This document shows positions 41,538 through 56,407 of a stretch of 64,000 nucleotides of DNA, piece after piece; the first letter of the stretch is position 1, and every line of letters starts with the position of its first letter. The DNA is from Halobacillus karajensis (GTDB lineage: Bacteria > Bacillota > Bacilli > Bacillales > Halobacillaceae): the NCBI RefSeq assembly GCF_900108515.1, contig NZ_FNWW01000001.1, forward strand, positions 682,001 through 746,000, read 5' to 3'. Under the pieces are notes generated by a model. That model saw nothing but the letters and a program-made list of their open reading frames with translations, was not told the DNA's origin and did no database searches. The position numbers were made by a program, and so were the translations under genes.

Positions 41538-41758
41538 ACTTATTCCTCCTTCTCACTTGTGATTGATGACAAATCTTGATGACGATTTCTGAATTCCCTA
41601 TACCTTTTATACCCTTAATGAGGTATCATTACTCATAGGTTATAGGATGTTCTTTAAACCAGAATTTTAACCATTAATTGGAATCCCATGCAAGTCACCC
41701 TTCCAAAGTCCCCTTAAAGCCTCAAAATTCCCTCGACTTGGGAAACTAGTAAAATTTG
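41538..41758. other. Upstream region of the aconitase gene, no gene seen
   Basis: About 220 bases between divergent genes, AT-rich, holding the aconitase promoter. Nothing further recognised. Confidence 0.4.
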
Positions 41759-41787
41759 TTGAAAATTCCAGAACGAACATGTATTCT
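41759..41787 (+). promoter_or_regulatory. Sigma-A promoter of the RNPP regulator-peptide cassette
   Basis: TTGAAA (41759-41764), 17-bp spacer, TATTCT (41782-41787). It lies 66 bases before the regulator start and upstream of the palindrome at 41827. Confidence 0.7.
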
Positions 41788-41826
41788 AAAGATAGATTTG
41801 AAAGAGCGAACACTCTGACAAATTGA

Positions 41827-41840
41827 TAGTTGATCAACTA
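41827..41840. promoter_or_regulatory. Perfect palindrome upstream of the RNPP regulator
   Basis: TAGTTGATCAACTA is a perfect 14-bp palindrome, 12 bases before the regulator ATG and downstream of its promoter. Position suggests an autoregulatory operator; binding is inferred. Confidence 0.55.
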
Positions 41841-41852
41841 GGTGTGTGAAAA

Positions 41853-43133
41853 ATGGAATATGGTAAAGTGCTTCGATTCCATCGTGTTAAACAAGGTTTA
41901 ACTCAAAACCAGTTAGCTGATGGAATTATCTCGCCGGCGTATTTGTCTAAAATTGAGAATGATCAAACTGTTCCAGCGTTCGAGGTACTTGAACACCTTT
42001 ATGAACGTCTTGGTCTGGATTTCCATGATTCTTCTTACCACCATCCTTCCAAAGAAAAATTGAAAGAATGGTATGAAATGATTGTCTTTAAGCGTAAGGA
42101 AGAGGCTAGAAAGTTAAAGGAAGAACTGATCCAACAGAAAGATACGCTGAATAATCATCATTTGTATATATTTTTTGAACTGTTTCGCATTCGCCATCTG
42201 CTGTTAGAAAACGAGGTGGAGGAGGCTTATAAAGCATGGAAAGATATCCGTCAACATGAGGATACATTTGATGAAGAGATGGAGTATTACTTCCATTTAA
42301 GCTCAGGGCTCGTTAGTTATTACCAAGAAGACTATGAAAACTCCTACTCAGAATTAATGGAGGCCAAAAATTATAGCACTTCTATTAAACTGGAAGGCTG
42401 GGAAGAAAGTGATTTATATTACCTTCTTGCTTTAAGCGCCAGTCAAGCTAATAATATTTCGGCGTCAATATTTAATGCTGAACATGCTTTAGCTATATAT
42501 CAAAAGCAATATAACCTATTCAAGAGTGCGAACTGCCACATATTGTTAGGTATCAACTATGGAAGATTAAAAAACTATGGTAAAGCCTTAGAAAATTATC
42601 ACTTAGTTAGTAAAATTGCTACCCAAACAAATAATTATTACCAACTAGGGGTTATATACCATAATATAGGTGTGATCGAGTCTCGACTTGGTAATTTTGA
42701 GGCAGCTATCTCAAACTATAAGAAATGCCTTTCTTATAGAACAGAAACTGCATCTGATCATGAGATATTTGAAACTATATATTGTTTAGTATTTGAAACC
42801 TATAAGATAGGTGAATTAGAAGACTGCAGAAAATGGATAAATGAAGGAATATCACATTTAAATTCTTCTTCATCTGATACCACTACTGATGAAATACACC
42901 TTAAAGTGTACACGATGCTCATTGATAATGATGAGAATGCGAGTGAATATTTAGAAAGTGTTGCAATTCCTCACTTTCTCGAAAAAAAACACCATAGATT
43001 TGTCATTCGTTACTGTATGATTGTAGCTGATTTATTAGAATCGGAACGAAGCTATAAAAAATCCACAAAATACCTAAGGTTAGCAATTGATTTGTTAAAT
43101 AAATATTCTAATTTAGGAGGTATTGTATTATGA
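41853..43133 (+). CDS. HTH-TPR regulator of the RNPP (NprR/PlcR) type
   Basis: A 426-residue protein. Residues 5-57 are a Xre-type helix-turn-helix (VLRFHRVKQGLTQNQLADGI, then SPAYLSKIENDQTVPAFEVL). From about residue 85 to the end, it consists of helical repeats of TPR type (for example NCHILLGINYGRLKNYGKAL and YHNIGVIESRLGNFEAAISN), the peptide-binding part of NprR, PlcR and Rap relatives. Length equals NprR. Its TGA overlaps the ATG of a 40-codon secreted-peptide gene (ATGA), the arrangement of known receptor-peptide pairs. GGTGTGTG is only a modest ribosome site. Expected: cytosolic receptor whose DNA binding changes on re-imported peptide. Target genes unknown. Confidence 0.88.
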   Translation: MEYGKVLRFHRVKQGLTQNQLADGIISPAYLSKIENDQTVPAFEVLEHLYERLGLDFHDSSYHHPSKEKLKEWYEMIVFKRKEEARKLKEELIQQKDTLNNHHLYIFFELFRIRHLLLENEVEEAYKAWKDIRQHEDTFDEEMEYYFHLSSGLVSYYQEDYENSYSELMEAKNYSTSIKLEGWEESDLYYLLALSASQANNISASIFNAEHALAIYQKQYNLFKSANCHILLGINYGRLKNYGKALENYHLVSKIATQTNNYYQLGVIYHNIGVIESRLGNFEAAISNYKKCLSYRTETASDHEIFETIYCLVFETYKIGELEDCRKWINEGISHLNSSSSDTTTDEIHLKVYTMLIDNDENASEYLESVAIPHFLEKKHHRFVIRYCMIVADLLESERSYKKSTKYLRLAIDLLNKYSNLGGIVL

Positions 43134-43252
43134 AGAAATTGATTGGCGTTATCGCTGTATTAGGGCTTGCCGTTTCAATTTCAGCAGGAGTCAACTACAC
43201 CGACACTGCGGATGAAAGGCACCCTCAACCACTAGTTGTGGATGAAGTTTAA
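43130..43252 (+). CDS. Secreted pro-peptide, putative Phr/NprX-like signalling peptide
   Basis: A 40-residue gene whose ATG (43130) overlaps the stop of the RNPP regulator, with AGGAGG nine bases upstream inside the regulator gene. The product has a Lys-Lys N-terminus, a hydrophobic core (about residues 4-16) and a signal-peptidase-like SISA/G site after residue 19, then a polar tail ending ERHPQPLVVDEV. This is the build of Phr, NprX and PapR precursors: export signal plus short C-terminal segment that is trimmed and re-imported by an oligopeptide permease. A terminator follows. The mature peptide is probably 5-10 residues from the C-terminus; exact ends are unknown. Confidence 0.8.
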   Translation: MKKLIGVIAVLGLAVSISAGVNYTDTADERHPQPLVVDEV

Positions 43253-43344
43253 TATTTATTTTTTATTTTTCTAATTTTGTGTGTTAATTTTCCATTTAAC
43301 ATAAATTAACACCTCCCCTAATCCTATACCTATACAAACTTTCG
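43253..43344. other. 3' untranslated region of the peptide gene
   Basis: AT-rich sequence between the peptide stop and its terminator; no further open frame. Confidence 0.4.
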
Positions 43345-43373
43345 CCTCTACCTTAATGGTAGAGGTCTTTTTT
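43345..43373 (+). terminator. Terminator of the RNPP regulator-peptide cassette
   Basis: CCTCTACC pairs with GGTAGAGG around TTAAT, followed by a T-run. Confidence 0.88.
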
Positions 43374-55135: not shown

Positions 55136-56407
55136 ATGAAGGGATCGTTAATAAAACAACACCGTAAATTTAAGAATATGACGTTAGAAGAGCTCGCATC
55201 TGGGATCTGCTCTGTATCCTACTTAAGTAAAATCGAACATGACACGATCAATGCGAGTGAAGAAATTTACCGTCATCTTGGAGAGCGACTGAAAATTAAA
55301 TTGACAGATATCAACCAAGAGTTTGACCAGACGATCCATCAGGAACTTTTAGATTGGCATGAAGTCATCCAACGAAGAGATCTGCCCCTTATGGATGAAT
55401 ACTATCAAAAATGCACAAATGCTCTCAGGACAAACCAAAATACAGAGCTGAATCATTTGTATAAAATTGTAAAATCCAGGCATACGATGAAATTGAATGA
55501 AGGTCCCCTCTCAGATGACGATTTAAAGGAAATTAATGATTTATACGCGTATTCAAACGCTGAATATAAATTTTTCTATCATAAAACGGTCGGAATCCAT
55601 TACCTTTTGAAAAATCACCAATTCAAAACCGCCCTTCATCATTTCCACAAAACAGAAGACCTGTTAAAAAAACTTCCATTTAATGATAGTGAAACATACT
55701 TTCACCTGGCTCTTACCTATTCCCAGACACGGGCAGCCGTTGAATCCAATTATTATGCGCATACAGCTTTGGAAGGGTATATTAAAGACTTTGATTATGA
55801 AAGAATTGTCGATACGTATATGATTATTGCTATTAACTACCGATCATTGGACATATATTCTATTGCTGAAGAATACTTCAAGAAACTGATTAAAATTGCC
55901 AAATATCATCTAAAATCTGTGGATGAAAGAAGAATCTATCATAACCTTGGATTCATTTATGCCAACCAAGAAAGATATGATGAAGCATTCGAATTACTTG
56001 ATAAAGCCTTTAATATGACTATTGATGTGAAGGATGACTTCTTTTACGTCAATACAATTTATCTACTTGCTTCCACCAATTATTACGCGGGCAATGTTGA
56101 AAAAGCATGGGCATATATTGATCAAGGTGAAAAAAGTGCAGAAGAATATGATATTCAATTTTTCAAGTACAGGTTCTTTGTCCTTAGACATACCATCCAA
56201 GAAAATACCTTAGCGGATTTCTTTATAGAGAAATTGGAAAACGAAATTATCCCCTATTCAAGAGAACACAATGAATATGGAGACTACAAAAATTATTGCG
56301 AAATGCTTGGTAATCTCTATTATGAAAAGCGCATGTACAAGAAAGCAGCTATGTATTATAAAGAAGTCAATAACTACCGCAAGACACAAAAAAAAGACCT
56401 TCTATAA
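55136..56407 (+). CDS. Second HTH-TPR regulator of the RNPP type, no peptide gene seen
   Basis: A 423-residue protein starting MKGSLIKQHRKFKNM at ATG 55136 (AAAGGAG eight bases upstream; an earlier in-frame start lies over the promoter). Helix-turn-helix 3-55 (TLEELASGICSVSYLSKIEH) is very like NprR. Helical TPR-type repeats fill the rest (YHNLGFIYANQERYDEAFEL, MLGNLYYEKRMYKKAAMYYK). A terminator starts at its stop codon, so there is no room for a downstream peptide gene, unlike the paralogue at 41853. It may answer a peptide encoded elsewhere, or none. Confidence 0.85.
   Translation: MKGSLIKQHRKFKNMTLEELASGICSVSYLSKIEHDTINASEEIYRHLGERLKIKLTDINQEFDQTIHQELLDWHEVIQRRDLPLMDEYYQKCTNALRTNQNTELNHLYKIVKSRHTMKLNEGPLSDDDLKEINDLYAYSNAEYKFFYHKTVGIHYLLKNHQFKTALHHFHKTEDLLKKLPFNDSETYFHLALTYSQTRAAVESNYYAHTALEGYIKDFDYERIVDTYMIIAINYRSLDIYSIAEEYFKKLIKIAKYHLKSVDERRIYHNLGFIYANQERYDEAFELLDKAFNMTIDVKDDFFYVNTIYLLASTNYYAGNVEKAWAYIDQGEKSAEEYDIQFFKYRFFVLRHTIQENTLADFFIEKLENEIIPYSREHNEYGDYKNYCEMLGNLYYEKRMYKKAAMYYKEVNNYRKTQKKDLL

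Follow-up and report, generated by a model that had tools for sequence, protein, structure and literature searches.

The window, a stretch of 64,000 nucleotides from the Halobacillus karajensis genome, contains a gene for a putative helix-turn-helix/tetratricopeptide repeat (HTH-TPR) regulator followed by a very small overlapping frame, an arrangement that raises the questions of (i) whether the two genes constitute a peptide signalling pair; (ii) how such a pair relates to known systems; and (iii) which genes it might control. An earlier note on this DNA had described a 426-residue Xre-HTH/TPR regulator overlapping a 40-codon gene by ATGA, and this description proved accurate: on the forward strand, the regulator gene runs from the ATG at 41853 to the TGA at 43133 and the small gene from the ATG at 43130 to the TAA at 43252, the latter having a signal-peptide-like N-terminus and an AGGAGG ribosome-binding site (43115–43120) 9 nt ahead of its ATG. 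For the promoter, palindrome, and terminator that had been placed around both genes, a promoter-like site (41759–41787), a palindrome (41828–41839), and a terminator-like site (43344–43366) were likewise found.

The regulator is present in all 22 Halobacillus genomes at E ≤ 1e-20 and is matched at 1e-40 in 42 of 44 genomes of the family; 34 of these 44, from the genus and two neighbouring genera, have a close orthologue. After identical proteins and one broken copy had been dropped, a set of 33 distinct intact orthologues (58–100% identical) was available. All 33 have a partner frame of 38–42 codons starting at −4 (30 with ATG, three with GTG), in each case preceded by AGGAGG, and we therefore do not regard the small frame as a chance occurrence. 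The objections foreseen in the earlier note, that the frame might lack conservation or display a non-coding pattern, can thus be set aside: conservation per codon position across the 33 loci is 0.69/0.82/0.55, and pN/pS is 0.50 for the propeptide (528 pairs; 0.44 within the first nine), compared with 0.26 for the regulator, 0.07 for its HTH, and 0.41 for its residues 301–426, all given as plain uncorrected proportions with synonymous sites near saturation. By this measure, no other part tested is as conserved as the HTH. In 21 of 22 named loci the adjacent upstream gene, divergently oriented, encodes aconitase. The cassette therefore appears to be vertically inherited, and the sequence evidence shows the regulator and propeptide genes to be a single overlapping unit that has been passed down together.

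A phage origin was rejected: the cassette is chromosomal, and one pattern-based scan of viral contigs gave three loci, with HTH-level matches only and no full-length relative. Plasmid relatives comprise eight records, the best placing at 25–30% identity. In one genome (G013; L025 and L026), the receptor gene is broken in several frames and the propeptide frame is intact; the strain may emit the signal only, or the breaks may be errors of sequencing.

The predicted propheromone of 40 residues has its core, HPQPLVV, near the C-terminus. The frame has no match in Pfam, and its NCBIfam matches (a lipoprotein leader, a Phr leader, and a sorting domain) are all below cut-off; judging from the N-terminus alone, the propeptide is probably exported. 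The motif [HYWF]P[RQEK]P occurs within the tail of 32 of the 33 orthologues, the exception (L020) having YPPL. Among the orthologues this core is conserved amid variable flanks, and in several relatives it is repeated in tandem, as would be expected of a processed pheromone.

Similar frames accompany more distant regulators. Among 49 distant loci (27–37% identity; nine from the family and 40 picked among the best order hits), an export-type frame lies next to the regulator in 44 and contains [HYFW]P in 39 of them, compared with three candidates in 245 shuffles, under a propeptide rule that was fixed after a first look at the data. Their cores, several of them in tandem, include HPDP, HPKIV, YPEI, FPEP, and HPEY, and appear to bridge the Halobacillus tails to NprX of the SKPDIVG type. 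At six loci (L090, L096, L105, L111, L119, and L120), the propeptide is very long (up to 187 aa) and contains the predicted pheromone core many times in tandem; according to Felipe-Ruiz et al. (PMC9765709), 17 of 17 NprR propeptides of unusual length contain repeats. Covariation of the peptide tail with the TPR pocket, a check put forward in the earlier note, was not found: in crude partial Mantel tests, peptide-tail and pocket-helix distances did not covary beyond whole-protein divergence (best p 0.097), and of three tests with the signal region, which is the wrong segment, one gave p 0.005.

The regulator matches the Pfam families HTH_3 (5e-9) and TPR_12 (9e-13), with RapH_N as a weak match under its cut-off, and in a sequence search against solved RNPP proteins NprR was the best match (4gpk; 3e-16, 62 bits), followed by RapH (9e-11, 44 bits). 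An AlphaFold model computed from 23 sequences has 18 TPR helices between residues 65 and 417, that is, nine TPRs following an HTH at about residues 1–60, with a mean pLDDT of 79.8 and values below 50 for residues 1–60 (the HTH) and 420–426. When this model was submitted to Foldseek, apo RapI ranked first and apo NprR second (5dbk chain B; TM 0.87, normalised to the target), the identity to NprR being about 20%. Furthermore, NprR residues, as named in PMC4970707, were mapped by hand onto the regulator from a sequence alignment. By this mapping, W79 and Y223 of NprR correspond to W73 and Y220, both invariant across 23 sequences, and W167 corresponds to Y161 (Tyr or Phe). The Spo0F-contact set D107/Y118/E188/Y223 is not kept as a whole, the first two positions being changed (to N101 and R112), the third variable (E185), and the fourth the invariant Y220; H201, R126, and R343 correspond to Q198 (invariant), N120, and S341, so that none of these three is kept. 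Mutation of D107 and Y118 in NprR is reported to have abolished sporulation inhibition (PMC4970707). The architecture is kept, whereas the Spo0F surface and the peptide contacts are kept only in part. We refer to the regulator as NprR-like and consider a phosphorelay role for it unlikely. Conservation, coding pattern, domain content, and fold all lend strong support to the view that it is a receptor with a propeptide partner.

The probable promoter (TTGAAA-N17-TATTCT; 41759–41787, forward strand) was located by a consensus scan in a stretch conserved across the 33 loci, promoter matches in the region being no commoner than in shuffles (seven found, 9.6 expected). Overlapping the probable −10 element is CGAACATGTATTCT (41774–41787), which has the form CGAACNTGTATTCT in 31 of the 33 orthologous loci; with two mismatches, CGAACATGTATTCT / CGAACRTGTATTCT resembles a LexA/DinR box. 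Between the promoter and the ribosome site lies the perfect palindrome AGTTGATCAACT (41828–41839), a candidate DNA operator that 31 of the 33 orthologous loci retain without any change. A regulon defined by this palindrome was rejected, as the genome has no second exact copy, and copies with at most one mismatch occur at 11 places versus seven for the backwards control.

At the 3' end of the cassette, a predicted intrinsic terminator (43344–43366, forward strand), whose stem as judged by eye is kept with changed bases in orthologues, follows a conserved 3'-UTR block, ACACCTCCCCTAATCCTATACCTATA (43309–43334, forward strand). The core of this block, CCCCTAATCCTATA, is present in 33 of 33 loci, unpaired in four of seven folded examples and partly paired in the other three, and the block has one genome copy at up to three mismatches. 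A scan of 397 genomes of the order found it in 14 from the family to which the cassette belongs and in a single genome outside that family, where it falls within an oxidoreductase gene; the backwards control hit three genomes. Rfam returned sub-threshold matches only. The block was rejected as a dispersed element, being single-copy in this genome; as coding, since in this window, by eye, the frame NTSPNPIPI is stopped just upstream and has no start codon; and as a small RNA that base-pairs to the ribosome sites of the cassette itself, since duplex energies across the 33 loci are not clearly above those of shuffled seeds.

Upstream of the cassette, some stretches show much stronger conservation than the third codon positions of the regulator, of which 15 of 423 are invariant. 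Just upstream of the promoter, on the forward strand, is the putative operator arm TTGGGAAA (41738–41745) within ACTTGGGAAAC (41736–41746), the latter being present in 33 of 33 orthologous loci. The position of an upstream arm (41686–41693, forward strand) is occupied by CTGTGAAA in most orthologues and by CCATGCAA here, so that it is eroded in this strain (five mismatches in eight positions, by hand count). The arms at the cassette promoters are in direct order, not inverted; a direct pair with a spacer of exactly 44 bp is the best pair in 28 of the 33 loci, the exceptions being this window, L034, L038, L039, and L042, and direct pairs with at most two mismatches were obtained in 3 of 330 shuffles.

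The arms recur well beyond the genus. TTGGGAAA or TTTCCCAA is found in 17 of 54 distant upstream regions (shuffle mean 0.31), and the exact pair TTGGGAAA-N43..45-TTTCCCAA in 12 of them. A scan for TTGGGAAA-N43..46-TTTCCCAA was positive in 86 of the 397 order genomes, with up to nine sites each, compared with 4 for the backwards control. Of the distinct exact sites in the fetched loci, 45 out of 48 have a spacer of 44 or 45, much of this set having been found under the 43–46 limit; within the genus, under a 40–50 limit, six of 22 genomes have exact sites, all six spacers being 44 or 45 (two control hits). Operator and regulator hits (1e-45) also tend to co-occur: both are present in 61 of the 397 genomes, the operator only in 25, the regulator only in 40, and neither in 271 (odds ratio 16.5, a statistic that ignores kinship among genomes that are related and not independent). 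At E ≤ 1e-15, an NprR-like gene was found in 23 of the 25 operator-only genomes and none in the remaining two, compared with 9 of 25 operator-free genomes, likewise without a strong regulator hit, that were hand-picked from the list (Fisher p 7e-5). The paired site is also found ahead of NprR-like genes themselves, among them a regulator group whose IISxSYLSKIEN helix is like IISPAYLSKIEN in the cassette regulator.

NprR–NprX has been reported as a tetramer with two DNA sites (PMC4970707), and a 2014 article states that further experiments were needed on the DNA sequence read by NprR (PMC4147580). Searching the literature with the two operator words gave nothing that looks related among the matches listed, which does not prove the operator unpublished, and a search for an NprR consensus or looping operator, including motif words in PMC3325205, gave nothing on the operator.

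The genes beside these sites point to secreted proteases. A neighbour scan covered 20 stretches around sites among the matches listed, together with the six genus loci, and comprised 30 neighbouring proteins rather than every neighbour. Of these, 17 are S8 subtilases; the other 13 are two histidine kinases, two DJ-1/PfpI proteins, PhoX, one HTH-TPR regulator, QueA, RuvB, SdpA, one weak acylpeptidase-domain match, and three proteins without a family. At L124, L125, and L126, the site precedes a subtilase located just downstream of the regulator. In this genome, an S8 protease gene (G000:C3:182412-183599) whose product has a secretion-like N-terminus is preceded by an exact site, and a second S8 protease gene (G000:C13:175068-176255) by a site with two mismatches; three of the six exact genus sites (L145, L148, and L149) are ahead of subtilases. 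Although all 22 genus genomes have the regulator, close subtilases (18 genes) were found in only 16 of them, six genomes having none. The best inverted pair with N44/45 has a fixed place ahead of these 18 genes, 130–141 bp before the aligned start, with at most two mismatches in 15 (0 of 480 shuffles) and three to four in the other three; because 64 of 480 shuffles reach three to four mismatches, the latter pairs are not significant alone. Six remoter subtilases have no pair better than five mismatches (0 of 6 at two or fewer).

Taken as a whole, the most probable explanation is that the cassette is a peptide quorum-sensing pair of the NprR–NprX type with its own pherotype, which would include the operator and protease control. 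Of the signalling pair by itself we are highly confident, while we consider the chances evenly balanced that operator and proteases are controlled by this particular regulator. The propeptide would leave the cell through Sec and be trimmed to a short peptide around [HYWF]P[RQEK]PL (here HPQPLVV), which an oligopeptide permease would take back up and the TPR groove would then bind. If the regulator behaves as NprR does, peptide binding would make a dimer of dimers, and the operator analysis suggests that this tetramer would bind two sites 52–53 bp apart, TTGGGAAA-N44/45-TTTCCCAA, or about five helical turns. Because two sites at this distance fit a dimer of dimers, we infer a peptide-dependent activation of extracellular proteases, in which the bound tetramer would switch on secreted S8 subtilases and hence extracellular proteolysis. 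The tetramer may also act at its own promoter through ACTTGGGAAAC; this action, like the step from the operator to the cassette regulator, is our interpretation of the sites. Weighing against the operator part and the explanation as a whole, and in favour of a different regulator, are the absence of a close subtilase from six genus genomes and the report that nprR-nprX transcription in B. thuringiensis is not autoregulated (PMC4147580). The missing covariation of peptide tail and pocket helices, the loss of NprR's H201, R126, and R343, the direct order of the arms at the cassette promoter with the upstream one degenerate in this strain, the occurrence of exact sites in only six of 22 genus genomes, and the two operator genomes in which no NprR-like gene was found at 1e-15 also speak against it.

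A second NprR-like HTH-TPR regulator, 25% identical to the first and without an adjacent propeptide, is encoded about 12 kb downstream (55136–56407, forward strand), and several further Halobacillus genomes (L032, L033, L078–L081) have similar genes at a distance of 14–18 kb from the cassette. Possibly, this protein is an eavesdropper on another signal. It also figures in the strongest competitor of our explanation, a serious if less probable one, in which quorum sensing is real but a regulator other than that of the cassette (this protein or a general protease regulator) reads the TTGGGAAA operator, which then would not point to the cassette's own targets. The second regulator has a similar recognition helix, and its HTH (GICSVSYLSKIE) is close to that of one regulator group whose own promoters hold the paired site, the arms at the cassette promoter are in direct order and partly eroded, and six of the 22 genus genomes have the cassette in the absence of a close subtilase. 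However, the second regulator's own promoter has no TTGGGAAA arm, whereas ACTTGGGAAAC is retained in the cassette promoter at every one of the 33 loci, and a different regulator group, with the IISxSYLSKIEN helix resembling IISPAYLSKIEN, also has the paired site before itself.

More doubtful is the idea that the transcript includes a third, RNA part, its 3' end (the C-rich block, which resembles the anti-ribosome-site seed of small RNAs, with the terminator behind it) being a regulatory RNA co-made with the pheromone, while the regulator would be a looping tetramer on an operator common to NprR-like systems across the order. A role mainly in the phosphorelay, in which the regulator would inhibit Spo0F in the manner of Rap and NprR until the peptide lifts the inhibition, appears unlikely: the regulator does have the NprR and Rap fold, with W73 and Y220 invariant, but the positions of D107 and Y118 are changed and that of E188 varies in the hand mapping, and of the parts tested the HTH is conserved best. 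We consider it very improbable that the small frame acts as a leader, or encodes a small membrane peptide, setting the expression of the regulator or of downstream genes and yielding no secreted signal; its strict overlap with the regulator and the below-cut-off matches to Phr and lipoprotein leader models would fit this role, but the retention of the tail core between varying flanks and its tandem repetition in relatives would not.

Returning to the NprR–NprX-type pair, the cassette has the layout of RRNPP (RRNPPA) systems, i.e., a cytosolic TPR receptor with an adjacent small propeptide that its N-terminus marks as probably exported, as well as the features of the NprR subfamily: an N-terminal HTH, nine Rap-like TPRs, and NprR as the closest solved RNPP sequence. 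It is a new pherotype of an NprR–NprX-type system and not a new class. The pair had been put forward as probably undescribed, and this holds for the signal sequence only, as the pair itself falls among NprR/Rap-type receptors and a gene list in PMC12167742 includes nprR for Halobacillus strains. Bernard et al. (PMC10075063) report 21 novel RRNPP subfamilies, and PMC12700828 contains a structural tree; a literature search joining RRNPP and Halobacillus found no paper with both, and the pair may already be listed in the supplementary tables of large RRNPP surveys. If the proposed two-site, five-turn operator is correct, DNA recognition by the NprR family, tetramer looping, and the regulons become directly testable in harmless bacteria. 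The cassette also contributes a well-conserved series of pherotypes in which signal/receptor divergence in halophiles can be studied.

AimR receptors are mostly phage-borne; the cassette shares the layout of receptor and propeptide with AimR–AimP but is chromosomal, lying in neither phage nor prophage. With Rap–Phr it has in common a related nine-TPR fold and a small precursor, here predicted from its N-terminus to be exported, whereas Rap proteins have no HTH, the regulator has HTH_3 (5e-9), and the equivalents of Q47 and F58 are not kept in it. PlcR–PapR likewise combines an HTH-TPR regulator with a downstream propeptide, but PlcR is placed in a five-TPR clan (PMC12700828), unlike the nine-TPR regulator described here. 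Some Halobacillus loci (L028–L031) additionally have a different HTH-TPR regulator (about 27% identity) with a downstream PapR-like propeptide ending in DELPFSN, DELPPSN, or DELPLSN, and in L027 a regulator of the same kind is accompanied by a propeptide with a repeated DEESPPTNG tail. The closest system is NprR–NprX of the Bacillus cereus group, with which the cassette shares the HTH and nine TPRs, an adjacent propeptide of about 40 aa, a proline-containing core, and, if the operator is read correctly, extracellular proteases as targets. It differs in its core, which is SKPDIVG in NprX and HPQPLVV-like here, with HPKIV and HPDP in relatives; in its two changed Spo0F-contact positions and perhaps in its ATGA overlap; and in its putative targets, S8 subtilases in place of the neutral protease NprA.
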